Assembly (NCBI RefSeq): GCF_963675165.1
Contig: NC_087377.1
Coordinates: 14,256,198-14,320,197 of the forward strand
Reading direction: 5' to 3'
Length of the DNA: 64,000 bases
From: Halichondria panicea
Lineage: Eukaryota > Porifera > Demospongiae > Suberitida > Halichondriidae
Shown: one piece after another, positions 5,825 through 64,000 of the stretch
How the letters are laid out: each line of letters begins with the position of its first letter
How positions within the stretch are numbered: the first letter of the stretch is position 1
The notes under the pieces: generated by a model
The model's input: only the letters and a program-made list of their open reading frames with translations
Databases searched by the model: none
What the model was told of the DNA's origin: nothing
Program-made: the position numbers and the translations under genes

Positions 5825-7360
5825 CTATTTGCAAGATTGAAGCAGTTCATTGTCAATGTAATCGTACTCCACTTTATCCTCTGGGTCAGTGGATACTCTT
5901 GCCAAACCATACGACTGATTCGCTTCCATGTTCATCTTGCCTCTTCTAGCTCCACTTCTTTTCAAAATTCCCACTTTATCGTAAGATAGGTTAGCTTTTA
6001 ATCTCATTTCTTCATCTGGTCGGGAACGTTCTTTCTTTGGCTTTCCATAAGACTCGTTAGGAATTGGTTCCTTTGAACTTACACTCGACTTTGTATAAAC
6101 ACTACTGCCTATTATTGGATCATCGGCTTCACAATAAGAGTGAGTCAGGTCTTCATTTTGCTGTGCTGTTTCTGGATTCGAATAGATAACCTCCCGATAA
6201 ATTTCCCTTGATTCTTGTATTCGTATCTCCGGTGCATCCTCTCTCGGTTGCACTCCAGACTCAGTTTCGCTTTTCAATTTTATGATGAGTAATTTTTTCA
6301 GCACAATATAGTATGTACCAACTCCCGTGACGAAACCGAGTACCAAAGAGAATATGAATACAACAACAGTAGTTGCTACGGTCACTCCGATAGATATACC
6401 ATTGGAACTGCTGTGTGTCACTGAAATTACAGCTGATGTAAAGGCTCATGCATTAATAGAACTCACCTATAAAAATATTATGTAGGACAGGATCACTTCT
6501 CCCCACGTCGTTGATAGCTTGGAGCTCCAACACGTAGTTACCATCTCTGGAAAGCGGGACAGTGAATGTGACGCTGCACACCATTGTACAGGTACCACTA
6601 TTAGTAGTTGAGATGTGATGATAATCATTCCCAGTTAGGGTGGCCTCATAGCGTATTTGTCGTCTAGAAGCAGGGCATGCCACAACCTGTGATTGACAAT
6701 CATGCATGGATCAGATAAGGTATAAATGTATAGCCCCTGGCCCAGTATTGCATGGTAAAAATGGTATGGCTTACTGGTGGTTCCCATGAAACTGTCAGCA
6801 TAACAGAAGCAGAAGATTTAAAGGATTTGACAATATTGATTTATTGAGGGTCTTCTGATAATGCCTGTTGCCTTACCTGAACATCAATTGTGATTGTCTG
6901 GTGCGTTACCGGATTGCCGCATCTGATTTCATTAATATGCTGCTCCTCAAGCTCTGAGATGTTGAGGGTAAGAGTTGAAGAAAAGTTTCCGAAATTCCGT
7001 TGATCACTCTGCAAAACTGAGCTCAACTCAACAGAAATAAAGGCTGGATTTGATACAGTTTGAGTAGAAATCATACTGTCAGGATAGAATGAATGAATTT
7101 CTTCTTTAGTGACATTGTAACTCCAACGCAAACTAGTGAGATCCACTCCCTCACAAAACAGTCTGACAGTTCCAGGACAGTGTTCACCAACCAGATTCAC
7201 TCCTCCCTCTACAGTCAGAGAAACACCTGCAACATGACTACATGCACTCAATGTTGCATAGCAAATCATGAAAACATGCAGGGATCTTACTAATTGCTCC
7301 GCTTTGTCCAACAGTGAAACACAGTAAGACAACACTCATTACCAAGTGAAATACTGCCAT
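5825..7360 (-). CDS. Ig-domain single-TM receptor with NxSY tail (receptor B)
   Basis: Exon 1 (7291-7360) encodes a 23-residue signal peptide rich in V and L. Exon 2 (7226 down to 6877, or to 6775 with a second donor) encodes an Ig-like domain with cysteines about 46 residues apart. Exon 3 (6467-6686) encodes an FN3-like half. Exon 4 (5825-6420) encodes one TM segment and a tail of about 150 residues. The tail holds PNESYG, ANLSYDKV, ANQSYGLA and EYDYIDNELL, echoing receptor A. With the 6775 donor, exon 2 has an in-frame TAA at 6841-6843. The strong donor at 6876/6875 joins exon 3 in phase 0 and skips it, giving about 411 residues. A cell-surface signalling role is inferred. The Ig module is closely related to those at 45.5 kb and 23.9 kb. 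Confidence 0.75.
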
Positions 7361-8054: not shown

Positions 8055-8465
8055 TGAGGTGCCGTTTGTGTCAAAACTATGTAAAAGTGAGACATATATA
8101 TATGTCCATGGGTATTTATAAATGTCCATGGATATTTATATATATCCACAGGTATTTATAAATACCCATGGACATATAATAAATACCCATGGACATTTAT
8201 AAATACCCATGGACATTTATATATACCCATGGACATTTATATATACCCATGGACATTTATATATACCCATTGGACATATATAAATACCCATGGACATATA
8301 TAAATGTCTATGGGTATTTATAAATACCTGTGGACATTTATAAATGTCTACGGGTATTTATAAATACCCGTGGATATATATAAATACCCATGGACATTTA
8401 TAAATACCCATGGACATATTATATATGTCTCACTTTTACATAGTTTTGACACAAACGGCACCTCA
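8055..8465. mobile_element. TA-flanked MITE with an internal palindromic minisatellite
   Basis: Terminal inverted repeats of about 44 bp begin TGAGGTGCCGTTTGTGTCAA at 8055 and end with its complement at 8465; each outer end abuts a TA dinucleotide (8053-8054 and 8466-8467). The interior is a tandem array of roughly 20-24 bp units alternating ACCCATGGACAT with its complement and TTTATAAAT spacers, each unit itself partly palindromic. Perfect TIRs plus a TA target site fit the Tc1/mariner-type superfamily. It has no coding capacity. Confidence 0.8.
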
Positions 8466-21735: not shown

Positions 21736-24129
21736 TTAAGAGCGAGTGTTGTAGTACACAGCCTCTTGAGTATAGCGTGCATATGCTTCATTTCTATTCA
21801 CTTCGATTTGTTTGAAACGCAACTCGTCAATCTCTTCATACACAGGGCTCGGAGTCCTCTCTAAATTATTGATCACCATGGACACACCAGTATTGTTGCT
21901 GGTGGTCTTGTTTCCACTTATCTTCTGTCGCTTGAGTACCACAGCAATAACCACAATTATGAGTGTCGACAGAAGACAGACCAAGCTTGTTAACCCAATT
22001 GAAATACCAATAATTATTTCATTACTAAAGGCAATTCCACTGGTAGTTGAAACATCAGATTCGTCCATTCCTAAAAAGTATAAAGCAATTCACTATAATT
22101 GTTTATTCTAGAATATAATTATATATACTTATACCTTGTGAGCATGTATGACGGGTGATGTACACGAATTCTTCTTGCAACTGCAGTGTGTCACTAATGT
22201 TCCATTTCAGAAGGAAATAGTGTGATGTGGTGGTCTCTTGCAATGTTAAAACATTATTAGAAATGAGGTCCTGAGTTGACTGAATTTGCTGGTAAAATGG
22301 ATCTCCTCCGTAATAGTTATTTAAACATTATGTATTATTTTGTACACTTACTGAGCTAAAGCAGTTAATTTGCAAGGCTGTACAGTTTAGAAACATAATA
22401 CTGGGTCGATAGTACAGTGAACTGGATTGATCTGAGTGTGTATATACAATTGACTCCATAAATCTTTTCAATGCTATAATACAAATTATTATGAACTTAC
22501 GAATAGGACTGATGAATTCATGTGTACTTGTGCCTCCACTGTTACTTGCTGTTAGGAAAATCCTGAGACTGGAAGTTAAGAACTTTGTAGCAATAACAAT
22601 CTTCGCTGTGCATGTTGCTGGCATGCACTCGTTTGATTGGACTTCAGCTGTCGAGAGTGCTACTGCTTCCATATCATTGTATCTGATACTCAGCTGATAT
22701 TGTATCGGGCTGTAACCACACACTGAGGCAACGTTAACCTGCATTGTGTCATAATTATAACTATACTGCAATAAATTATGCTGGCTAAGGTACGTTCTTA
22801 CCCAATCAACCTGAATTATTTTCAACTCTCCCCTGTTTGAGTACAGAACAATTACCATCATAATCTCGGGATAACTAGGTTCTAATTGTATTTACATGTT
22901 AATACAGAATATACATAAATATTATTGGCTTACCAATAGTGAAATTTCTCCTATTAGTAACTTGATCGACTTCTGAATCATTGATTCCTACCCAGGCTTC
23001 GTAAAAATTGATATTTGATGGTGTTAAGGTGTATTGCTCATCAAGACTAGTGTTTATCTGTACTAAAATTTGGTGTAAATTGTTTAGATAAACAACGGAA
23101 CAAAAGGCAACCGTTGATGCTTTCAGTGGTGACATACAAACTCCTCTCAATTTGCAGCCATCGTATGCATGCATTATAGAGAAGTAGTAGTCACTGCTAT
23201 GAGCTGCATGCAGTGTGTGCATTGACGAAAATATACTTTCATTATCCATTTAAAATTTGAAAACTCACCTATAAATTTTACTGTTTCGTATGAATCTGAG
23301 TCACCTGATGAATGCGTGTCTGTAAGCACAATCGTTAAGTTGTGTTCACGATCCTCCGCAGTACGTGCAATGTTTTCAAAGATTCTTGTACAAAACATTC
23401 TACCACATGTGTTGTAATTGACTTGAATGGATTGAGAGCCTGTTAGGCCAATTATATATGCTATTGAATCTAGCATGTGTTCAGGGTAAGCAGGTTGCTG
23501 TGGGGCATGCACAAGTTGTGAATGCATTATAATGATGAGTGATAACTTGAATTACCAGTTTAATCCATGATATTTGCAAGCTGTTCAGTAGGCCAGAATG
23601 GTAGCGAGCACTGATCGAAGATACTTTCGGGCTGTCTGGAGTTGTTTCATGGATGATAATGGGATCCACTTGTATAGTCCTAATGGTTGCAACATCTCCG
23701 CATGAGATGCTAGTAACCCCCTGTAGCTGTAGTTGCTCCACATCTACTGTTAGAACGGAGGACAATAAGGACTGAGAAACTGCTCTGAGCTGCACAGACA
23801 GAAATTCAGGGCGCAATAATGGAATAGGATCAGAAGATGTCTCTGAATCAGTTTGAAAGTCATAGATTAAATTGTTTTCGTTGTGTGTCCATCGAAGATG
23901 GACAAGGTCCACTCCCTCACAGAACAGTCTGACAGTTCCAGGACAATGTTCACCAACCAGACTCACTCCTCCTTCGACCATCAGAGAGACTGATGAATTA
24001 TCTAACGCCAGAGTGTTGCAGCCACCTGGAGGATTTCCATATAAATCACTGTATGAGCTAGTATGAGCTAAATCAAGACAATTTACATTTAATAATGAAG
24101 AGAAAGATGTACTGTAGCAGATTTTTCAT
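21736..24129 (-). CDS. Ig/FN3 single-TM receptor (receptor D)
   Basis: Exons on the - strand: 24087-24129 (signal peptide MKNLLQYIFLFIIK), 23556-24001 (Ig-like plus first FN3 strand), 23269-23497 (FN3), 22934-23203 (juxtamembrane-like module), 22802-22881 and 22501-22738 (second FN3), 22352-22431 and 22135-22288 (second module), 21736-22070 (TM and tail). All phases agree. Order is Ig-FN3-X-FN3-X-TM, about 620 residues, with a short tail containing SPVYEEID, NRNEAYARY and VYYNTRS. The 63-bp segment 22289-22351 is treated as an intron: it starts GTAAGT, ends CCAG, and holds an in-frame TAA (22328-22330) that would truncate the ectodomain if retained. The Ig start (SVSLMVEGGVSLVGEHCPGT) is nearly identical to receptors B and C. 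Confidence 0.8.
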
Positions 24130-45319: not shown

Positions 45320-48300
45320 ATGTATATAACCACATTAATTGTGTTCAATTGTACCACCATACAGAAACATCTGATCCAAGGCTACATTGTCTTCATTGTA
45401 ACTGCATACTTGACAGCTCAGTCTAAAGGTGGGAAATTAAAACACCTGCACTATTGTATGCATGTAGTTGATTCTGTTGCTTCCTTTTAAAGGTACAATG
45501 CCATCAGTCTCTCTGACTGTTGAAGGAGGAGGCAGTCTGGTTGGTCAGCTCTGTCCTGGGACAATGAAAATGTTTTGCTATGGAATAGACTTGTCAATTT
45601 TACGATGGAGATACAATGGGAACATAGATATAGTAACCGTTTTTTCAGATGCCTCAGCTCCTTTTTCATTTGAGATCAATAATCCAGCATTCTTAAGTGT
45701 TGAGCTGCTATCAGTAGCACAAGATCCAGTGGATCCGAATTTCGGTAACTTTTCGTCAGAACTTGTTGTAAATGTGTCACAGTTGCAGGCAGTGAGTGTA
45801 ATGAGCATTACATGCGGAGATCCGGATACTTTCAAAATGATTCCAGTGGATGTTGAGATTATACAACAAACTGAACCTGAGAGTCCCAATGGAACTAATG
45901 TAACAGCTCTCTATGAATTTGGATCCTTGACGGATGTCATTGTTTCTTGGGAACAATTGGTGAGTTATATACCGGGAGCACATGAGGAGATGGAGCGGGT
46001 TATTATGCATAGTAGTCTATAACTACATTTGTAATGTGCTAAGTTCTCTGTACATGTGTGGCTAATAACGCGTTTGATGTAATAGTGAGTATTATTAAGG
46101 TGTATTATTAAGGTGTACGATGCAGTGTTCGCCCACGCAGTAATTATCTATAGTAGTAAATCATGCAAGCTGTCTTGACTGTATACACTAGTCGTCACTT
46201 TATATGATAGATATTGCATGCTCTTTGCCAGCAACGAGGAAAGGGGTAGGGCGACTCTCGAAACAATTTCTTGAAAACAATGAACATGCAGTCATCAAGA
46301 ACTCTTCGAGCCGTCCTCAGGAATATCATGAACTGCTGGTAGGTAACTGTTTAGTTCTGGTTAGAGTCCTGATATTTGACGACTAAAATCGGCTATGACC
46401 ACAATATGTGTTCGGTAAAGTTGCAGGGGGGTGCTAGGGGTACTCGAGCACCCCCGTATACAGCCTGTGTCAAGTACAAAACACAAAGAAATGTATCTGA
46501 TTATCCAACTGCACCCTTTCTCTTCCATATCTTGCTGCAGTTAGCTAGCTAGTAGGCAAGAAAAACGATTCAGTCTCTATAAACTGTGAGCTATTCTGGC
46601 TTAAATGTGTGAACTAGTTCTCTTTCGTAGCTTCTGTATGCAAATATAGTGCATCCAGCTTAGAGAGTAGATTACGACAAATTTGTGAGTAGCTGTACTT
46701 AAATGTAAAATATCTTTCGATTGGAACATTTCTAAGAAATGGTGTTGATACCAATTAATGTGTAGGTGAATAACCAAGCTACAAAAACGTTTCCATGGAA
46801 ACATAAGGTGGTGGGTTTGTGGTGATTAATAGAACAACAGCAAATTGTTATAGTGGGTATTAATCGGTTAGAGTAATAAAACAGTAATCTTGTACAGCTA
46901 AGGTCCTAGACTTATCACATAATTGTTCAATGGTTTAGGTATCCTGACCATCCCTTTTATGGGTCTTACATATGTTCACAGTGTCTATGATTTACTAGTT
47001 TTCAGGTACACTTTTGGTTAGAGTAATAACTTCTGAAAAATTAATAGCTTAGCTTTCAAATTTCTGTAGAGTAAGTTTACAGATATATGGGCTACATTTT
47101 GATACCAAGAACATCTTATTCCATTGCTGATATAACACTGAAAAGCTACATAATTTACTATTTTCTACTGTTTTGATGACATCAGCAGCTGCAAACCACA
47201 AACCAATGTCGCTTTAATCAACCACAAACTTAATTAAGAGTGACTGTACGCCCACTTACGTAGTTAATTAAAGTGTCATCGATTTGTGGTTAGCAGCTTG
47301 TGATGTCATCAAAACGGTAGAAAATAGTAGAATATGTAGTTTTTCAGTGATATCTCAACAATGGAATAAGCATAGAGGATGTTCTTGGTATCAAAATGTA
47401 GCCCATTTATTTGTAAACTTACCAGAGAACTTTTAAACCTAAGCTATAAAATTTTCAGAAGATATTACTCTAACCAAAAGTGTACCTAAAAACTAGTAAA
47501 TCATGAATTATACTGTGAACATAATTATGTAAGACCCATAAAGGGATGGTCAGGATACCTAAACCATTGAACAATTATGACAAAGTCTAGGACCTTAGCT
47601 GTACAAGATTACTGACTTTGTACTACGGTTGCACCAAAGATCAAAGGCTTCAGTTGTAGTTTATACTACTTATACAACCTGTCTGACCACAGCCATGGTA
47701 TATGGCATTATACCCTAGTGTATAACTGCCATATACCATGGCTTGTGGTCAAACTACATGTACAGCTAGAACTGAATACAGTATCCCACCTTTGCAACAA
47801 AATTGACACACTGTTTCAATTAAAACAATGACACACTACTCAATTCGATCGATATTAGAGCTAGAGAGAATTCAATACAAAACAGACTACTAGTCAACAT
47901 AAGAAGAGCCAAGCTCGAGCGATGAATAGTTCCAAAAAGGGAGGCAAATTTGGAAGAACTCTGTGAACGATACTGGTTTGTTTGTGTTGCTTTCTTTCAA
48001 CATTGGTTGTCACAACCTGCTTATTACATTGCTGCATGGGACCAGGAGCAGTAAGAAGGGTCCAGACTGCCAAGTGTTTATCTGGTTCCTTCACAATTCT
48101 TCAGGCAAATTCATTGCATAGCTATAGCAACAGTGACAGTAAACAGTAGTTATAAGCATATTCATTGAAGAAGCATGACAGGAAGTAGCTCTAAACATAG
48201 TAGTACAGTTCTAAACATAGTACAAGCCAGTTAAACTATGGCCTCTCGTGCTTTACACGCTCGAGTAATCAGATAAACCAACTCGACTGCGCCTCGTGGT

Positions 48301-51300: not shown

Positions 51301-54300
51301 TTGATTGTTTCACAAGAAAGGGGGGTCCACAGTTAATAGTGCATACTGATTGTTTAAATGGCCTGTAGCCAAACAGTGGGAGTAAGCCTTTGTCAAAGGC
51401 ATAGTTAGTAGTCTGTGAGATAAGCATTAAAGACAGAATTCAATCACAGAAAGTAGACTATAGTATCTATAACAAGCAGTCTAAAAAGAGTTTAAACACA
51501 GAATTCAACCACAGAAAGTAGACTCTATAACAAGCAATCTAAAAAGAGTTATATTTATCAGAAAAGGTTAGTTTGTGGCTTACCAGGACCTCAACAAAGA
51601 AGAAAATCCAGGATCTGATTCTCTTACACGTGGTATTGAGTGCGCATGCGCATTACATCCAGGAATAAGTGCAAGTTCACAAATGGCTACTAAAATAGCT
51701 AGCTTCTTTAGCAGCTCTTTCTGACTGTTGTAGCTAGCAAAAAGCTAGCGCTTTAATGCAAGGCTAACTCATAAGTTGAATAGAACGTTTGTGCGAACAG
51801 ACGATGCTATGAAAGATTCTGAAGAGACTGCAACAGCCTTCAATGTGAGTCAAACTAGCCATAACTCAAGAAAGTTTGCTAATCCACGAATCAAAATCCA
51901 AGAGAACGGCTAGAAGCCTATATAGAAGCTGTTAGTTTTCCTCGCATTGCAACCGTTGAGCAGTTACAGTTGGAACAGACACACAGACACACACACAGTC
52001 AGCTTTACCGTGTCCCTCGTGCGGCTACGCCTATAGTTCAAGGCATAATGAAACGTTTACCTTAAAGTGACATATTTCACAGGTAGATTTGTTTGTGTTT
52101 TCACTGTTTTAGCTAATTTTGCTGCTGCTCAAGTTGTGAAATTAATATTATTCATAGCGTTTCTAATTACTCACAAGTGGTTTTAATGAGATTCATTGCA
52201 TTTTCCAATTATCTGCGAGTACACATTTTTCGATTTTACTCTCATTCACAGAAATTAATACTCGCGAAAGTAGGTCACCTTAAGGTAGTATATAGCCGCT
52301 CTCAAATATAGTACAGTAAAGTTTGACTCTAGCGCATTTCTGCACGTAGAAGCCATATTAATACTAGCAGCTAGCTACATGTACATGTAGGTAGGTAACA
52401 GTTTGTTAGTGCTTCAATTCACAAAGACTTTTTCATGGCAGAGTTCGAGTTTATGCAGGTGAAAATAACTTTTGATGACGCCTCTCTTGAACAGTGGCCT
52501 CTCTCGAATTGTAGCCTCCTCTGCCAGCAAAATGAAATATTTAGCCTCTGATTGGTACATGAATATAATTATAGTTTTGCCATCGCGTGACAGGACATAA
52601 TATTGTTTTTAATGGTACAGTAGAACCTCGATTATCCGGACACCTTTTTTCCATAGCCATGCAGGCCAGATAACCAGATAATTGACTATATTATTAACTA
52701 CACCCACAAATGCAGCTTACTCAGCAATATCTTAGTGTTGCACATGCGCTGTAATAGTCCTATAGAGCCTGGAGTTTTGATTGCTCTTCGAATGCCCATG
52801 CATTAATTACTTCCAGTATAACTTCCGCAGTAAAATTGTGCTGATCGAGTTAGCACACTCTTTTACATTCTGCAATACATGTGCTATTTGAATTGAAAAT
52901 AAGAGCTACACAATGGTTTTTGTCCCAGAGAGTTTTATCAACTCTAGACTTGAAGATACCTACTATATATACACAGTAAGTGCAGTATAGTACTAGATCT
53001 AAGAGGCAAACTAATGCTCAAGGATGGTGGAACATCTCATCTACAATGTGCTCACTAACAGGTGGTTAATGTGTGGGTGGGCAGAACTGTTGGGATTGCT
53101 CGGGGCTCTAAACCAAGCTTGATCAGTTCTTGACGAACGTAAGGAACAAATGCCTCGTGAAACCAATCTGGAAATATACTGCACCAGTCTCATCTCATCG
53201 CAATTAAATATTTGGTCAGGGCATATATATAGCTTCTTTATTGAAATTGCTTTAACAAATGATAAGACAAACTCATCAGCAGTAGAATCATCGGCTGACA
53301 ACTTTGTAATGACAGATTCCTAATTGGGGTGCCCGCACATAGTAACAAATTGACATAATTTAACCACAAAAATGCAACGTTTAAATCCTGAGACTTGCAC
53401 ACGCAGTATTTAATTTCAATGCATGCGCTAGTATAGTAGTAACCACAAGTAACAACATAGTGGTTTTGTGAGGATGTCTTCAATTAAATTAACTACAAGG
53501 GGGGTGCTCAAGCCCCCAAAGCGCCCCACTGGATCCGCCACTGGATACAGTTGTACATGGCTGTAGCTTAATAGTATAAGCTATACACTATATATACACA
53601 GATTACCAGTGTGCGCACATGCGCTTCATACATTAGTACACGTGCGCATACGCACAATGAACGTACTCCTTTTCATCAACATAGTGTGAACTTTGACCTA
53701 CACAAGCTATTATCTGAACTGTAATTGATAATTATTTCAGTGAAAAAAAGCAGCTTCTACTTTACACCTACTTTCCTCTCGAACGACTGTCGGTTTGCTT
53801 GTGAGTGCTTCTCAAATGGAAGTCTGGATACAGACAGTTGCAATGTGCTGTACACAACTGACTCGATGTACATGGATCCATCAGCAATTGTTTCTCCGCT
53901 CAATACACAATTTGAAATAACTGGAATAATTTCCAATACCATCTACTATTTTGATTTTTTTTTATCTGTGAACAAAACTCTACTTGTTAGGAACAAAATT
54001 ACAAAACAATCGATATCAAGTAAGCTTTATTATGTAATAGTGTTATAATTATTGTTATGGTCACACGTTGTTATTGCTCTAGGTCCGAGGCTCAGTTTAT
54101 TGGTCATTGTGTTCCTAACTCTGACTATTTTGGCTCTCATTCTTGTAGCAGCATTTATTATAGGTTAGTTACTTATCACCAAAGCATTCACTTATAATTA
54201 TTACACTTTTGCAGTTGACTGTGTTTTAAAGCAATTACAAAAGTTTGTAACAAGACTTTTTTTTTGTGTGGCAAGTTTCTTGGGATTATTGAGCTTGGTG

Positions 54301-57300
54301 TTTCTTATTGTTTTCTTAATTATCACTGGTGTCCAGCAAGGCAAGTTTTTTTAAAACAAATTGTACTTATTCTATTAAACTGTGTATTATTTCTAGACAC
54401 ATGCAGTTTGGACTGGAGGAGAACACGCAACGCATTGATCATTTCTGCCTTTCTTTTAGCTTGCTTTGGCAACATGTTTCTGGTCTGCATCCTGCTTGTC
54501 TCTTGTGTAAAGAAAAGTAAGGCAGCATCAATTCATAACAATCGATTCCATGTTTATTTTCAGATTCAAACATGATGGATGTGCATATAGATCTATTAGA
54601 ACACAGTCCAGTACTTTTCCATGCTGACCCACATAGAAAGTAATGGAACCCTAATTATAGTTGTACTATTCTCATGCATCATCATATATACAGTGATCCT
54701 GCTGACAAACAGACTGGCTATCAAAAAGAAAAATCTAAACATTGGTGGAGTAGTAGACCAGCCAATAGACAAGAAACAAATGAACTTATTGATATGCGGG
54801 ACGAGTCAAAGGTTGGTACAGCAAATAGTGAATCATCGGCTTTTCTAATCAATAAAGGAGGTCACGAGTCCACAACTCAATCCAAGTGCACAGACTCTTC
54901 TGGCCGCCTCAAATTTAAAAGGATCAAAAACTCTAATCCTGCAGTTGTTGTTCCCGGTGTCCTACCTGCTACCACACTATCTAGGGTAAAAATATAACCA
55001 TTCATGTCCTTAAGTTGTACTATGTTCGTAACTGTATGTTTGCTTGCAGGCCGACCAACACTTGTCCAATGATGCAAAGCCACAAACTGACGAAGCAACG
55101 TACAACAGTTCTGAAACCAGCAATGCACCACTCTCCAAGGCAGTGCAAGATAAAGACGCAAAGCAGGGACGCAAGTACAGATTCTCTTTGGGGCCTCTCA
55201 AGTTTGGAAGGAGCGAAGATACTACTGGTGCTCCTGTGACCTCACCGGTAGTTCCCCCTGGACAAACGGACCTGCCAGATGAGGTAAATCGCAGCCACTT
55301 AATTATGCCTCGAGGCGTAGCCGCACGAGGGATACAGTAAAGCTGGCTGTGTGTTGTGTGTGTATTCCAGCTGTAACTACTCAACGGTTGCAATGCGACG
55401 AAAACTCACAGCTTCTATAGGCTTCTATAGCCACGTTCTCGTGGATTTTGATTCGTGGATTAGCAAACTAAAGCTTCTTTATTGAGTTATTGCTAGTTTG
55501 ACTCACATTGATTGCTGTTGCAGTCTCTTCAGACTCTTTCATAGCATCATTTGTTCGCACAAAATTTCTAAACTAAACTTAACCGCTAGCTTTTTAGCTA
55601 CAAGAGCTGCTAAATCAGCTCGCTATTTTAAATTATTAGCCAATAATTTTGTGAACTTGACCTCTTGCAGACACACCCCTTATTCCAGTGGATCTACTGC
55701 GCATGCACGCTCATCCCCACGTATGAGACAATCCATTTTGAACCCCAGTCCTTGGCAGCTAAGCCACAAAACACTATTATAAATGCATGTACACAAGTCT
55801 TTTCTTCTCAGTTATAACGAGTGTTGCAAGCGTGCGCTTGCTAATGCCTCTCGCCATGTTTTTGCTTTCGCTCAAAAGTATTAGAGTGTTATAGAAGAGG
55901 TAAATAATTTGCAATGTGCTTTGATTGTTTCACAAGAAAGGGGCATCCACAGTTAATATATATAGTGTATACTGATCGTCTTAAATGCAGGGGCGGAGGA
56001 AGTGGTCCGGCAGGTCCGGCAACTGCCTGACCAATATTGAATCAAACCTAGCTATAATTATAGACTCTAGCTAACTTATAGTCAACTACCAGCTAGAGGC
56101 CGAGGATAAGCTAGCTAGCTAGCTAGCTACGATCGAACTCTATTCCAGTTCAATGTTACATGTTTAATGTTCTATTCTAATTATACGTAGATCTAATAGT
56201 GGGAGGACCTAGATCCAATAATAATTATTGGGCGGAGTCCAGCCTAACCAGGTATGATACAGAGGTATGATAATGCAAGTTCAAAGGTCAAATTTAGTAT
56301 ACATTTTTTCGCAGCTAGTAGGGCCCTATTTTTGCCTAACCAATGCCATTAAACTTCCTCCACCCCTGAAATGGCCTGTAGCCAAACAGTGGGAGCAAAT
56401 CTTTGTCAAAGGCATATAGTCATGCAGTAATCTGTGAGATAAGTACAATTCAATCACAGAATTAAATCAACGACACTGAAGCAACTGCATGTTATTTAAA
56501 TGGCCTGTAGCCAAACAATGCAAAGGCACAGAGTAAGAGAGAATTTAAGCACAGACAGTAGTATATCACAGACAGTATAGTATATATAAACAAGCAGAAC
56601 GTGTGTATCTATCTATATTAGTACTGAGAAGAAAAGACTTGTGTAAATGTATCTATTGTTATCAGACTTGTGTACATGAATATTGTTATCTAGTCTATAC
56701 GGTATCTTTTGTTTTGTGGCTTACCGGTATACCAGGACCTCAAGAAAAAGAAGTATGTTGATTCTGCTACTGGATTCTCTAACATGTGGGGATGAGCGCG
56801 CATGCGCATTGCATCCACAGGAATAATTAAAGGGTGTGTCCAAAGAGATCAAGTTCACAATGGCTACTAGAGCTAGCAGTTTTAACAGATCTTTTCTGAC
56901 TCTTGTAGCTAACAAAAAGCTAACGCTTTATAGTGCAAGGCTAACTCATGTGTTGAATAGAAAGTTTTTGCGAACAGATGATGATTCTGAAGAGACTGCA
57001 ACAGCCTTCAATGTGAGTCAAACTAGCCATAACTCGAGAAAGAACGTTTAGTTTGCTAATCCACGAATCAAAATCCAAGAGAATGCCTTGAGGCAGAATT
57101 ATAGATAAGATATTATACTTTCTTTGTATGAAATTCAAATGCAAATTGTTAACGTAAAATTCATTTTAGAAAATACTTGTCAAATATGGTGCAATCTAAT
57201 TGGTTACGTGGAGGTCTTTTATTTCTCATAGATACCTCTCAGACATTCAGAGGTACAATAATACTGAATTGACTAATTTTTAAGCATGCATGTACCGTAT

Positions 57301-60300: not shown

Positions 60301-63300
60301 GATCACTTGAGCTGTAAATGTGTAGGCTATCTCGAATAAAGGCCGCGTGTAGTTAGCTAGCTGGCAACGTGCAAGTTTCTTAGCTTTTACTCGCTTTCAT
60401 TCGACAACAAAGCTTTAACATCGAAATCTACCACAGTAAAACTAATAACTTGTTGTGTGAAGGCTATCCATGCTGTAAACGCAGTGCTGTGGCATCCAGG
60501 TGAGTAGATTCACATATTATTACAAACAGACAAACAAACAAACCAAACGACTACTATACCGTGGCCGCCCATGCGCACCTCGGGTAATAGCATTAGTGTA
60601 TTTACTGTTCATAGGTACTCTAGTACATGGATCAATGCTTGCATGCTTTAATTCTTTTGTTGAGGCTTGCTGAGGCTGCTGAGGAAGATATTCCATGTGT
60701 CGTACTTGAATTCTTCATCACTTGTAGCAATACTCTGACTTGACCACACCGACTATTATCTTTTATACATGAAAGGTAATGTAGACACTACTAGATATAT
60801 TGAAGTGTAAATGGCTCCTTCCATAGCTACTTCTTGTCTGGAATCTCCTCGCCCGGCTTTAGAGATATCTCTTCAATTCAATTTAGGTTGCTAGGCAACC
60901 AAAACACATTCAATATGAATAATGGACAAATATTTTCTGGCTTTAATTTTCACAACACTATATCTAACATTTTTAGGGGATTTCTTAGTACATGAGGCAT
61001 ACAGTGAAAATTAATCCGACAAATGGGCTTCCTCTTATTATACATTTAGAACAGTATATTGAATGTATACAGTTCTTAAAATGATGGCATAATGGGTTAA
61101 TTCTTTTGACAAGTGCATCAGGGTTTCATCTATTGGATAAAAAGTTTAGGGTTATGCGTACTGCAAAATGCTAAACCTACTTTTGTTGAGCACACCCCCT
61201 GTTACAAGCTAATGCATCACAGTAGATTTATAATTTATAATACCGTTAGCTGGAAATTTTCGTGAGGTGCAAAATTTCGCGTTTTTTGAGAGCAGAGCAG
61301 TTTACGCGAAAATTAAAACCGGTATAAACTCTCATGCATCGGTATTTCACATGCAAAGCTATTGGTGGGTGTGGTTTCCTGGCATTGAAACGTGAATATT
61401 AGAACCTAAAGCTGAGCATTTTGGGGAAGGGTCACCCCTGCCCCCCCCCCCCCCCCCCGATGCATTAGATATGAAACCATTATAATTATGCTGAATTTGC
61501 GGCAGTATACTCAAACCAATTGTATTGTTAACATTATAGAGTTCTATTAACCGACCTAAAGAGGAGACAGAACTTGTTAAGCCACAAACTAATGAAGCAA
61601 CCTACAACGGTACTGAAACCAGCAATGCACCACCACTCTCCAAGGCAGTGCAGGATAAAGACGGAAAGCAGGAACCCAAGTATAGGTTCTCTTTGGGGCC
61701 TCTCAAGTTTGGAAAGAGTGGAGATACTACTCCAATTGGTGGTGCTCCACCGGTAGTTCCCCCTGGACAGACATACCTACCAGCTGGGGTAAGTGGCCAA
61801 TATACTGCGATTGGTAGGCCCTCATTATGCTGGTAAGTCGGTTTGATACAATTCTCTCCTTAACTTCCTCCCTTACATTTAGAATGACAATACAACAAGA
61901 AAACTATAAAATATTAATGTCCAATGCCTTGGGTTAATTTTTTGACCAGCATAATAATCGACTGAATTTGAGGCAGTATACTCAAAAGCATAATTGGAAG
62001 AAAAAAGAACATAATGTAGTTTTCCAGGGTCGATTGTTCAATATTATTTTATCGTTTTAGAGTAACCGACCTGACGAGGAGAATGGTCAAACAGAACTTG
62101 TGAAGCCACAAACTGACGAAGCAACCTACAACAGTTCTGAAACCAGCAATGCACCACCATTCTCCGAGGCAATGCAAGATAAAGACGCAAAGCAGGAACC
62201 CAAGTACAGATTCTCTTTGGGGCCTCTCAAGTTTGGAAGGAGTGAAGATACTACTCCTATTAATTGTGCTCCTGTGACCTCACCGGTAGTTACCCTTGGA
62301 CAGACGGACCTGCCAGCTGGGGTAAGTAACCAATATTTTGCGATTGGTAAATTATTATTGTTTCAGAATTCTATTAACCGACCTGACGAGAAGAATGGTC
62401 AAACAGAAGTTGTGAAGCCACAAACTGACGAAACAACCTACAACAGTTCTGAAACCGGCAATGCACCACCATTCTCCGAGGCAGTGCAAGATAAAGACGC
62501 AAAGCAGGAACCCAAGTACAGATTCTCTTTGGGGCCTCTCAAGTTTGGAAGGAGTGAAGATACTACTCCTATTGGTTGTGCTCCTGTGACCTCACCGGTA
62601 GTTACCCCTGGACAGACGGACCTGCCAGCTGGGGTAAGTAACCAATATTTTGCGATTGGTAAATTATTATTGTTTCAGAATTCTATTAACCGACCTGACG
62701 AGAAGAATGGTCAAACAGAAGTTGTGAAGCCACAAACTGACGAAGCAACCTACAACAGTTCTGAAACCAGCAATGCACCACCATTCTCCGAGGCAGTGCA
62801 AGATAAAGACTCAAAGCAGGAACCCAAGTACAGATTCTCTTTGGGGCCTCTCAAGTTTGGAAGGAGTGAAGATACTACTCCTATTGGTTGTGCTCCTGTG
62901 ACCTCACCGGTAGTTACCCCTGGACAGACGGACCTGCCAGCTGGGGTAAGTAACCAATATTTTGCGATTGGTAAATTATTATTGTTTCAGAATTCTATTA
63001 ACCGACCTGACGAGAAGAATGGTCAAACAGAAGTTGTGAAGCCACAAACTGACGAAGCAACCTACAACAGTTCTGAAACCAGCAATGCACCACCATTCTC
63101 CGAGGCAGTGCAAGATAAAGACTCAAAGCAGGAACCCAAGTACAGATTCTCTTTGGGGCCTCTCAAGTTTGGAAGGAGTGAAGATACTACTCCTATTGAT
63201 TGTGCTCCTGTGACCTCACCGGTAGTTACCCTTGGACAGACGGACCTGCCAGCTGGGGTAAGTAACCAATATTTTGCGATTGGTAAATTATTATTGTTTC

Positions 63301-64000
63301 AGAATTCTATTAACCGACCTGACGAGAAGAATGGTCAAACAGAAGTTGTGAAGCCACAAACTGACGAAGCAACCTACAACAGTTCTGAAACCGGCAATGC
63401 ACCACCATTCTCCGAGGCAGTGCAAGATAAAGATGCAAAGCAGGAACCCAAGTACAGATTCTCTTTGGGGCCTCTCAAGTTTGGAAGGAGTGAAGATACT
63501 ACTCCTATTGGTTGTGCTCCTGTGACCTCACCGGTAGTTACCCCTGGACAGACGGACCTGCCAGCTGGGGTAAGTAACCAATATTTTGCGATTGGTAAAT
63601 TATTATTGTTTCAGAATTCTATTAACCGACCTGACGAGAAGAATCGTCAAACAGAAGTTGTGAAGCCACAAACTGACGAAGCAACCTACAGCAGTTCTGA
63701 AACCGGCAATGCACCACCATTCTCCGAGGCAATGCAAGATAAAGACGCAAAGCAGGAACCCAAGTACAGATTCTCTTTGGGGCCTCTCAAGTTTGGAAGG
63801 AGTGAAGATACTACTCCTATTGATTGTGCTCCTGTGACCTCACCGGTAGTTACCCTTGGACAGACGGACCTGCCAGCTGGGGTAAGTAACCAATATTTTG
63901 CGATTGGTAAATTATTATTGTTTCAGAATTCTATTAACCGACCTGACGAGAAGAATGGTCAAACAGAAGTTGTGAAGCCACAAACTGACGAAGCAACCTA
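45320..64000 (+). CDS. Three-TM Ig/FN3 receptor with repeated-exon tail (receptor C), 3' incomplete
   Basis: Exons with agreeing phases: 45320-45428 (signal peptide), 45493-45959 (Ig-like plus first FN3 strand), 50908-51118 (FN3), 53741-54019 (juxtamembrane module), 54083-54163 (TM1), 54215-54340 (TM2), 54397-54516 (TM3), 54564-54639, 54694-54985, 55050-55283 (tail repeat unit 0), 61540-61788 (1), 62061-62321 (2), 62367-62633 (3), 62679-62945 (4), 62991-63257 (5), 63303-63569 (6), 63615-63881 (7), 63927 onward (8). About 1300 residues lie in the window and the 3' end is beyond it. The intron 54341-54396 has a GC donor. Each tail unit has TYNSSE and KYRFSLGPLKFG. The Ig module is that of receptors B and D; the three TM exons are those of A and E. 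A signalling receptor with a repetitive tail is inferred. Confidence 0.8.
46590..48615. mobile_element. Foldback element in the first large intron of receptor C
   Basis: Outer arms 46600-46870 and 48362-48600 and inner arms 46876-47200 and 47270-47612 are inverted copies (CATGGAAACATAAGGTGGTG; GTAATCTTGTACAGCTAAGG; and others). Together they form one long palindrome of about 1.2 kb with a 70-bp loop. The right arm is split by copy B (47622-48361). Confidence 0.8.
47622..48361 (-). mobile_element. Palindrome-bearing element, copy B (inserted in the foldback arm)
   Basis: Reverse complement of copy A minus its nested TTAA element. Both end hairpins are kept. It lies within the right arm of the foldback at the point corresponding to about 46870 in the left arm. 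The order of events is therefore: foldback, then copy B; separately copy A, then the TTAA element into A. Confidence 0.8.
48838..48985. repeat. Hairpin with CGGAAGTTC arms
   Basis: GCGGAAGTTCGAGAAGC and CATGTAGCTCGAGGC pair with their complements at 48918-48950, and the outer CACGGTTGCAAGTGCTCTATTG pairs loosely with the other side. MITE-like, no ORF. Confidence 0.6.
49010..49290 (+). repeat. R1 repeat copy 2
   Basis: Contains the TAGAACTAACTACTAAGTAGAATAGCAACC block and GCAATGGCTTTCAACG followed by GGTAAGCAAAACTAG. Confidence 0.65.
49620..49935 (+). repeat. R1 repeat copy 3
   Basis: Nearly identical to the copy at 32410-32725, including the ACACAGACACACAAACACAC end. Confidence 0.75.
50325..50850. 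mobile_element. Foldback element with the TTTTAATCGG ends
   Basis: Outer arms CAATTAAAATACGGCTTGTATC (50331) and the complement at 50815-50845. Inner arms CTGAAGCCAAAAGAGGCTCTC (50513) and its complement at 50665-50690. No coding capacity. Related to the 64-bp palindrome at 26.36 kb. Confidence 0.7.
51197..52040 (+). repeat. Composite repeat R2 plus R1
   Basis: R2 starts AACGAGTGTTGCAAGTGTGCGC and is followed by TGGCCTGTAGCCAAACAGTG, then an R1 copy (51680-52040) with GCAACAGCCTTCAATGTGAG. The same composite, longer, occurs at 55815-57090. It may be one mobile element with R1 as its 3' part. Confidence 0.65.
52617..53310 (-). pseudogene. pogo/Tigger-like transposase fragment
   Basis: At 53041-53301 the - strand reads KLYICPDQIFNCDEMRLVQ followed by an SRTDQAW segment; PDQIFNCDE is the region of the first catalytic Asp in Tigger/pogo DDE transposases. 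A TIR-like CAGTAGAACCTCGATTATCCGGA lies at 52619-52641. Frames are broken and the rest of the domain is gone. Confidence 0.55.
55325..55740 (-). repeat. R1 repeat copy, inverted
   Basis: Reverse-oriented copy just downstream of tail unit 0 of receptor C, beginning with the CTCGTGCGGCTACGCC-type end and containing the complement of GCAACAGC...AATGTGAGTC. Confidence 0.7.
55815..57090 (+). repeat. Composite repeat R2 plus R1, second copy, with nested MITE
   Basis: Same order as at 51.2-52.0 kb. A short frame 56857-57009 begins at ATG, runs MATRASSFNRSFLTLVANKK and ends at a GTGAGT that looks like a splice donor. The MITE at 55988-56368 is inserted in the R2 part. Confidence 0.65.
55988..56368. 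mobile_element. 381-bp MITE with CAGGGGYGGAGGAAG ends
   Basis: The left end CAGGGGCGGAGGAAG and right end CTTCCTCCACCCCTG are inverted. AAATG is duplicated on both sides (55983-55987 and 56369-56373), and the uninterrupted version is seen at about 51357. A related copy is at about 59885-60140. Confidence 0.75.
57600..58560 (-). pseudogene. Crypton-like tyrosine recombinase remnant
   Basis: The - strand fragments, 5' to 3', read LQSAGVGSVYKQAE...DHSADTLLN (58114-58443), GLYFALRSGGEHRQLR (58016-58246), then VNEQLVMERTGHTS and, one frame on, SIEGIRSYKRTSLEQ (about 57690-57810). The GH-x-R and terminal SYKR box is the tyrosine-recombinase catalytic end seen in Crypton-derived and ZMYM/QRICH-type proteins. 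Frameshifts and stops show decay. It lies in an intron of receptor C. Confidence 0.65.
59085..59515. mobile_element. MITE with 37-bp inverted repeats
   Basis: GTGACAGGCTCTGGGAAAACC at the left and its complement, starting TAGTCTGGTTTTCCTAGAGC, at the right. No ORF. Confidence 0.75.
59880..60140. mobile_element. MITE related to the 55988 element
   Basis: Starts AGTGGCGTAGGAGCAGGGGG and contains TGCCTGACCAATATT, ending TTTGCCTGACCAATGCAAAATTGC...CCTACACC. The same internal TGCCTGACCAATATT occurs in the 55988-56368 element. Confidence 0.6.
60141..61539. other. Intron of receptor C, little recognised
   Basis: An AAACAGACAAACAAAC tract and CTACTATACCGTGGCCGCCC at 60525-60580 resemble 44225-44270. 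A TACCGTTAGCTGGAAATTTTCG fragment is at 61241-61325. An 18-base poly-C run is at 61441-61458. No ORF of interest. Confidence 0.5.
61540..64000 (+). repeat. Tandem exon/intron array, 312-bp period
   Basis: From 62322 onward the donor site recurs at 62322, 62634, 62946, 63258, 63570 and 63882, exactly every 312 bp. Each unit is a 267-bp exon (89 codons, phase 0 at both ends) and a 45-bp intron GTAAGTAACC...TTTCAG. Units 1 and 2 (61540, 62061) are diverged, with exons of 249 and 261 bp and a 272-bp intron between them. Units 3 to 8 are nearly identical. Unit 0 (55050) is an isolated ancestral-looking unit of 234 bp. Confidence 0.9.

Follow-up and report, generated by a model that had tools for sequence, protein, structure and literature searches.

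A tandem array of receptor-tail exons separated by identical stop-free 45-nt introns in Halichondria panicea, probably multiplied by unequal exchange

Near the end of a 64,000-nt window of the Halichondria panicea genome (G000:C1:14256198-14320197), seven tail exons of a putative receptor gene are separated by six copies of one 45-nt intron-like segment that contains no in-frame stop codon. We consider it likely, with a probability of about 0.8, that this array arose by the tandem duplication, through unequal exchange, of a symmetric exon together with a minimal and routinely spliced intron, so that tail length would be set by genomic copy number. The first-pass annotation of this DNA had proposed that exon skipping and intron retention would let one gene make many tail lengths and compositions. 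The genome searches described below were performed against the 131-Mb, 39-contig assembly, and the match counts given are lower bounds.

Results

Organization of the tail-exon array

From position 62061 of the window, head-to-tail copies of a 312-bp unit follow one another, a repetition far beyond chance (Tandem Repeats Finder: period 312, 98% matches; 6.2 copies inside the window and 6.8 once the flank was added). The array comprises seven phase-0 exons, namely U1 of 261 nt (87 codons) and U2-U7 of 267 nt each (89 codons); the length of 89 codons initially assigned to the exons applies to U2-U7, but not to U1. These exons are split by six complete 45-nt segments, identical letter for letter, each starting with GTAAGT, ending with TTTCAG and reading in phase 0 as VSNQYFAIGKLLLFQ, with no in-frame stop. 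The ends, the 15 residues and the absence of stops had been described correctly before, but only five complete segments had been counted. The array was also rightly said to be open in one frame with or without the introns: the open frame through it spans 722 codons, and positions 62061-64193 (2133 nt) form a single open frame when the 45-nt segments stay in, the array ending 193 bases beyond the window, where U7 finishes. The donor following U7 (GTAAATCGC) differs from that of the 45-nt intron, and downstream of U7, introns of 333, 861 and 932 nt are followed, respectively, by exons of 252 nt and 147 nt and by the inferred terminal exon, which contains a stop codon. In pairwise comparisons, U2-U7 share 255-265 of 267 nt, and the tail repeats carry the motifs TYNSSE and KYRFSLGPLKFG. 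The layout is as follows.

61540-61788, plus strand: tail exon F0 (249 nt), upstream of the array
61789-62060, plus strand: long intron A (272 nt, seven in-frame stops), its first 28 nt resembling the 45-nt intron
62061-62321, plus strand: array exon U1, 87 codons, phase 0
62322-62366, plus strand: 45-nt intron, copy 1
62367-62633, plus strand: array exon U2, 89 codons
62634-62678, plus strand: 45-nt intron, copy 2
62679-62945, plus strand: array exon U3
62946-62990, plus strand: 45-nt intron, copy 3
62991-63257, plus strand: array exon U4
63258-63302, plus strand: 45-nt intron, copy 4
63303-63569, plus strand: array exon U5
63570-63614, plus strand: 45-nt intron, copy 5
63615-63881, plus strand: array exon U6
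63882-63926, plus strand: 45-nt intron, copy 6
63927-64000, plus strand: array exon U7, continuing to window-equivalent position 64193 (L009:193)
Window-equivalent 64527-64778: exon F8 (252 nt)

Two features expected of tandem exon duplication are present in this one assembly: the array has equal exons whose length is a multiple of three (3n), the same phase throughout and homologous introns, and a relative with fewer units exists in the paralogue L010, where a lone 45-nt intron separates a 255-nt exon from one of 267 nt. At exon sites 209 and 242, linked variants were observed, A and T in U1, U4 and U6, and G and C in U2, U3, U5 and U7; this mosaic suggests block exchange within the array. 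Near-identical repeats are prone to mis-assembly, and the copy number might in part be an assembly artefact, or the locus a pseudogene. Both are highly improbable in our estimation: each unit has its own combination of variants at 19 sites, and the inferred gene model is open as far as its stop.

The 45-nt segments as probable introns

When the genome was searched for the 45-mer with up to three mismatches allowed, at least seven copies were found, each with no mismatch, six of them in the array and one in the paralogue, which is located 190 kb away and has no array; a control search of the same genome with the pattern reversed gave no match. Both GTAAGT and TTTCAG are intact in 7/7 copies. 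At the equivalent boundaries, the array gene has long introns of 272 nt (7 in-frame stops), 333 nt (7 stops) and 861 nt (24 stops), and the paralogue has introns of 291 nt (11 stops) and 359 nt (7 stops). The 45-mer was then compared with five long family introns (F_A, F_B, F_C, P_A and P_B; 500 shuffles each). Its 5' 28 nt match F_A and P_A at 24 of 28 positions, with a score of 36 for both against best shuffled scores of 32 and 25, and its last 14 nt are the end of P_B (14/14), with a score of 28 that equals the best of the shuffles. The splice signals in every copy, the long introns at equivalent boundaries, the resemblance of the ends and the gene model together make the 45-nt segments look like introns, in agreement with the first-pass annotation. 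The intron has canonical ends and a G+C content of 12/45.

A length of 45 nt is in line with the other short introns of the inferred gene, which measure 47, 51, 54, 56, 63 and 64 nt. Elsewhere in the genome, seven myosin junctions read well over introns of 47, 55, 57, 57, 57, 58 and 59 nt; these were picked by eye from an open-frame junction scan that gives many chance joins. In 196,709 bases, 31 candidate donor-acceptor pairs with a spacing of 40-54 nt were counted against 19 in the reversed control, a suggestive excess that we did not use as proof, the 45-nt class including the array intron itself. Gaps of 52-62 nt between exon matches occurred in 10 of 44 kinesin neighbour pairs and in 0 of 31 myosin pairs, although these lengths are rough, coming from hand-picked match rows (69/96 for myosin and 77/128 for kinesin). 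An apparent 45-nt insertion in one myosin match was discarded, as direct reading gave a 57-nt intron. In the sponge Amphimedon, introns of ribosomal-protein genes are reported to have a median length of 68 bp, the shortest measuring 37 bp (PMC3412847).

The segments might alternatively be plain coding sequence that is no longer spliced, an intron having turned into exon within a 104-residue repeat; the single frame from 62061 to 64193 is what this would produce, and gene prediction could return it as a single exon. We regard this as unlikely, given the splice signals unbroken in every copy, the longer stop-bearing introns at equivalent boundaries of both genes and a length that suits the other inferred introns. 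In an automatic annotation, the seven exons may appear merged as a single exon of 2.1 kb.

Openness of the frame and the case for retention

Among 45-mers with fixed ends and shuffled interiors, 0.33 were stop-free in phase 0, and among 45-mers of window composition, 0.49; with a factor of 1/3 for length, a 45-nt intron is expected to be both 3n and stop-free with a frequency of 0.11-0.16. Because the copies are identical, the six array introns represent one event and hence one observation. In the inferred gene, each of the short 3n introns (51, 54 and 63 nt) contains at least one stop, and of the non-3n introns (47, 56 and 64 nt) only that of 47 nt is stop-free. That one of the gene's seven distinct short introns is both 3n and stop-free is unremarkable, and the openness of the 45-mer is an ordinary one-time coincidence. 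What had been taken for a repeated intron design amounts to one intron copied along with its exon.

Programmed, exitron-like retention would have the six stop-free introns kept or removed under regulation, one gene thereby yielding tails of varied composition and length. The in-frame, stop-free introns and symmetric exons are consistent with this, as are the conservation of the array intron, at least equal to that of the exons, and the frequency of retention in Amphimedon, where the passages on alternative splicing give it as the commonest type, at 45% of events, with exon skipping at 1.8% (PMC4432959). We still judge such retention quite unlikely: the open frame is a single coincidence, no coding constraint is seen in the changes of the 45-mer relative to long intron A, and the long introns at equivalent boundaries would bring stops. 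The fuller proposal, that exon skipping and in-frame retention combine to lengthen or shorten the tail and to introduce a hydrophobic insert of 15 residues at six sites, giving many isoforms from one locus of a large clustered receptor family, appears very unlikely. Any skipping or retention does keep the frame within the array, but this does not extend to the tail overall, in view of the stops in the long introns. Nor did a function in isoform diversity find support in the canonical splice sites and the intron length normal for the gene, no feature of regulated retention being seen. The insert itself has a mean hydropathy of 0.71 and was judged too weak and too short for a membrane span.

The absence of coding constraint was assessed over the first 30 nt, in which the same six sites (codon positions 1, 2, 1, 2, 2 and 3) distinguish the 45-mer from both F_A and P_A; from F_C it differs at 13. 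The six differences alter all three affected residues, so that coding constraint on the retained peptide is not visible at this small n. For the exons, the ratio of non-synonymous to synonymous substitution rates (dN/dS) between the two genes was 1.17 for F0/P0, 0.52 for U1/P1, 0.58 for F8/P2 and 0.35 for U3/P3, and ranged from 0.35 to 0.75 in four within-gene comparisons; the exons thus look coding-constrained in three of the four between-gene pairs.

Several observations weigh against duplication of a routinely spliced intron as the full account. Among the array copies, variable sites number 0/45 in the intron and 19/267 in the exons; the probability of zero variable intron sites is approximately 0.05 with all 19 sites and 0.21 with the 10 sites judged array-internal. 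The paralogue copy of the intron is likewise identical at 45/45 positions, with 9-17 differences over 267 sites between its adjoining exon and U2-U7. This invariance is a weak hint of additional constraint or homogenization acting on the intron, and a coding role would account for it no better than gene conversion, recent spread or constraint on the splice signals. The long introns F_B and F_C scored 17 and 20 against the 45-mer, below their shuffle maxima of 31 and 26. The frequency of retention in Amphimedon makes retention in a sponge gene not implausible, and we infer intron removal from the array mRNA on the basis of sequence.

Proposed origin of the array

Under duplication by unequal exchange, one of the phase-0 introns on either side of an ancestral tail exon would have been shortened to 45 nt, apparently when a deletion or an unequal exchange joined the donor end of a long family intron to the acceptor end of another; the fusion of two long-intron ends is suggested by their resemblance to the 45-mer. 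The symmetric exon plus minimal intron, together 312 nt and a multiple of three, would then have undergone tandem duplication through unequal exchange until the array held seven exons and six introns. The 45-nt introns are most likely removed routinely, and the length of the tail and number of its repeat motifs would follow genomic copy number, not programmed retention. A rare failure of splicing would add 15 residues and no stop, and the product should therefore escape nonsense-mediated decay and be tolerated. Multiplication of one short stop-free intron may thus have created a region where splicing errors would go unseen by nonsense-mediated decay, and the array could serve as a natural test bed for the retention rate of minimal introns when the retained product is not removed.

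Comparison with known systems

Tandem exon arrays that keep to one 3n length and one intron phase have been described. In the Tetrahymena LRR genes, the passages on tandem arrays of 90-bp exons describe equal 3n exons of uniform phase, as found here, with variation in exon number largely ascribed to unequal exchange, among other routes (PMC6564038). The Tetrahymena arrays belong to a ciliate, encode LRRs and are in phase 2, whereas the present array encodes a receptor tail and is in phase 0; moreover, those passages describe no stop-free introns, in contrast to the stop-free 45-nt intron (PMC6564038).

Exitrons, as characterized in part of PMC4484396, are stop-free removable segments, often 3n, that keep the frame either way, and the 45-nt intron shares with them canonical splice signals and the lack of an in-frame stop. 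It differs from them in its AT-rich composition, its resemblance to longer introns and its presence, with canonical sites, in six tandem copies, and in being known from genomic sequence. Exitrons are further defined by spliced and unspliced mRNAs, the unspliced form giving the full-length protein, by weaker splice sites and by a GC content above that of retained introns; the GTAAGT and TTTCAG ends and the 12/45 G+C of the array intron may point away from the last two traits. They are also internal parts of coding exons; here, on sequence alone, the equivalent boundaries hold stop-bearing long introns, and both ends of the 45-mer resemble such introns, which may point the other way. For the short 3n introns of ciliates, the relevant passages treat minimal introns for which 3n length and stops matter upon retention, as is the case here, but such introns are mostly under-represented and stop-rich, with the exception of one Tetrahymena length class, in contrast to the single stop-free 3n intron multiplied in the present array (PMC5014332). 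Frame-preserving exons are reported to be enriched among the skipped exons of animals, also in non-bilaterians (PMC6142364).

The earlier statement that no described receptor has this design held in part: no receptor tail combining both features was found, but equal-exon arrays and exitrons have each been published. In titles and abstract openings of the open-licence literature, no such design appeared among receptors with repeated tail exons or among sponge receptor and allorecognition clusters, which leaves its absence unproven.

The receptor gene around the array

A gene model, with exons joined at hand-picked splice sites, starts at 53743 and stays open over 1286 codons until its stop. Its introns are GT-AG, with one GC-AG, and all tail exons except the terminal one were checked and found to be 3n and in phase 0. 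The features upstream of the array are listed below.

45501-45959, plus strand: N-terminal receptor exon with a Cys-Trp-Cys pattern that looks Ig-like (inspection only), 47% identical to each of two paralogues
53741-54019, plus strand: last ectodomain exon of the inferred gene, FN3-like (inspection only), with an in-frame join downstream
54083-54163, 54215-54340 and 54397-54516, plus strand: three hydrophobic exons, inferred membrane segments, best 19-residue hydropathy 3.1, 3.0 and 2.5
54517-54563, plus strand: inferred 47-nt intron used as length control, GTAAGG...TTTCAG, its removal joining an open frame
54640-54693, plus strand: inferred 54-nt intron, 3n, one in-frame stop
55050-55283, plus strand: first tail repeat exon, matching the array unit

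The topology suggested by the three hydrophobic exons and the N-terminal ectodomain would make the array part of the cytoplasmic tail of a receptor. The residue pattern of the ectodomain fits an Ig fold; Pfam gave nothing above cut-offs in the eight protein pieces scanned, including the N-terminal and last ectodomain exons, and the AlphaFold model of the N-terminal exon (mean predicted local distance difference test score of 36.9) was too poor to use. A hydrophobic frame at 54600-54845 was rejected as a membrane segment, since the joined frame makes 54640-54693 an intron. By inspection, the paralogue L010 has a single clear hydrophobic segment (at about 2400-2546), as opposed to the three successive hydrophobic exons at 54083-54516, and a three-pass membrane part is possible for the focal gene.

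The wider receptor-like cluster and other features

The product of the N-terminal exon has at least 77 matches in the genome, not each a separate gene, and those listed all lie on contig C1, on both strands. Of these matches, 67 fall between 13.95 and 14.54 Mb (approximately 0.6 Mb), and the family spans G000:C1:11.46-14.54 Mb. Family matches in the window include the following.

45501-45959, plus strand: the N-terminal exon given above
6781-7227, minus strand: family N-terminal (Ig-like) exon match
23559-23993, minus strand: family N-terminal exon match

The 89-residue tail repeat was found at two loci only among at least 15 matches at E ≤0.01. This large clustered receptor-like family may constitute an immune or self-recognition complex, and tails may differ among its members while ectodomains remain related; a cluster of related receptor-like genes with differing tails may outweigh the array in importance. 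The match at 6781-7227 contains one TAA. Adjoining this member, positions 5825-6445 on the minus strand encode a hydrophobic stretch and a very different tail rich in tyrosine motifs (such as EVIYSNPE, QSYGLARV and EYDYIDNE).

Further observations concern other sequences. A short COX1-like fragment on a chromosome-size contig (L065:1501-1692; G000:C1:5280527-5280718), with two TGA codons where Trp fits, is probably a mitochondrial insert. Wnt genes appear to be few, with 10 matches in the genome that probably represent four genes; together with TGA read as Trp in COX1 and the short introns, this would fit a sponge. Within the window, a separate tandem repeat with a 20-bp unit and 16.5 copies occupies positions 8091-8423.
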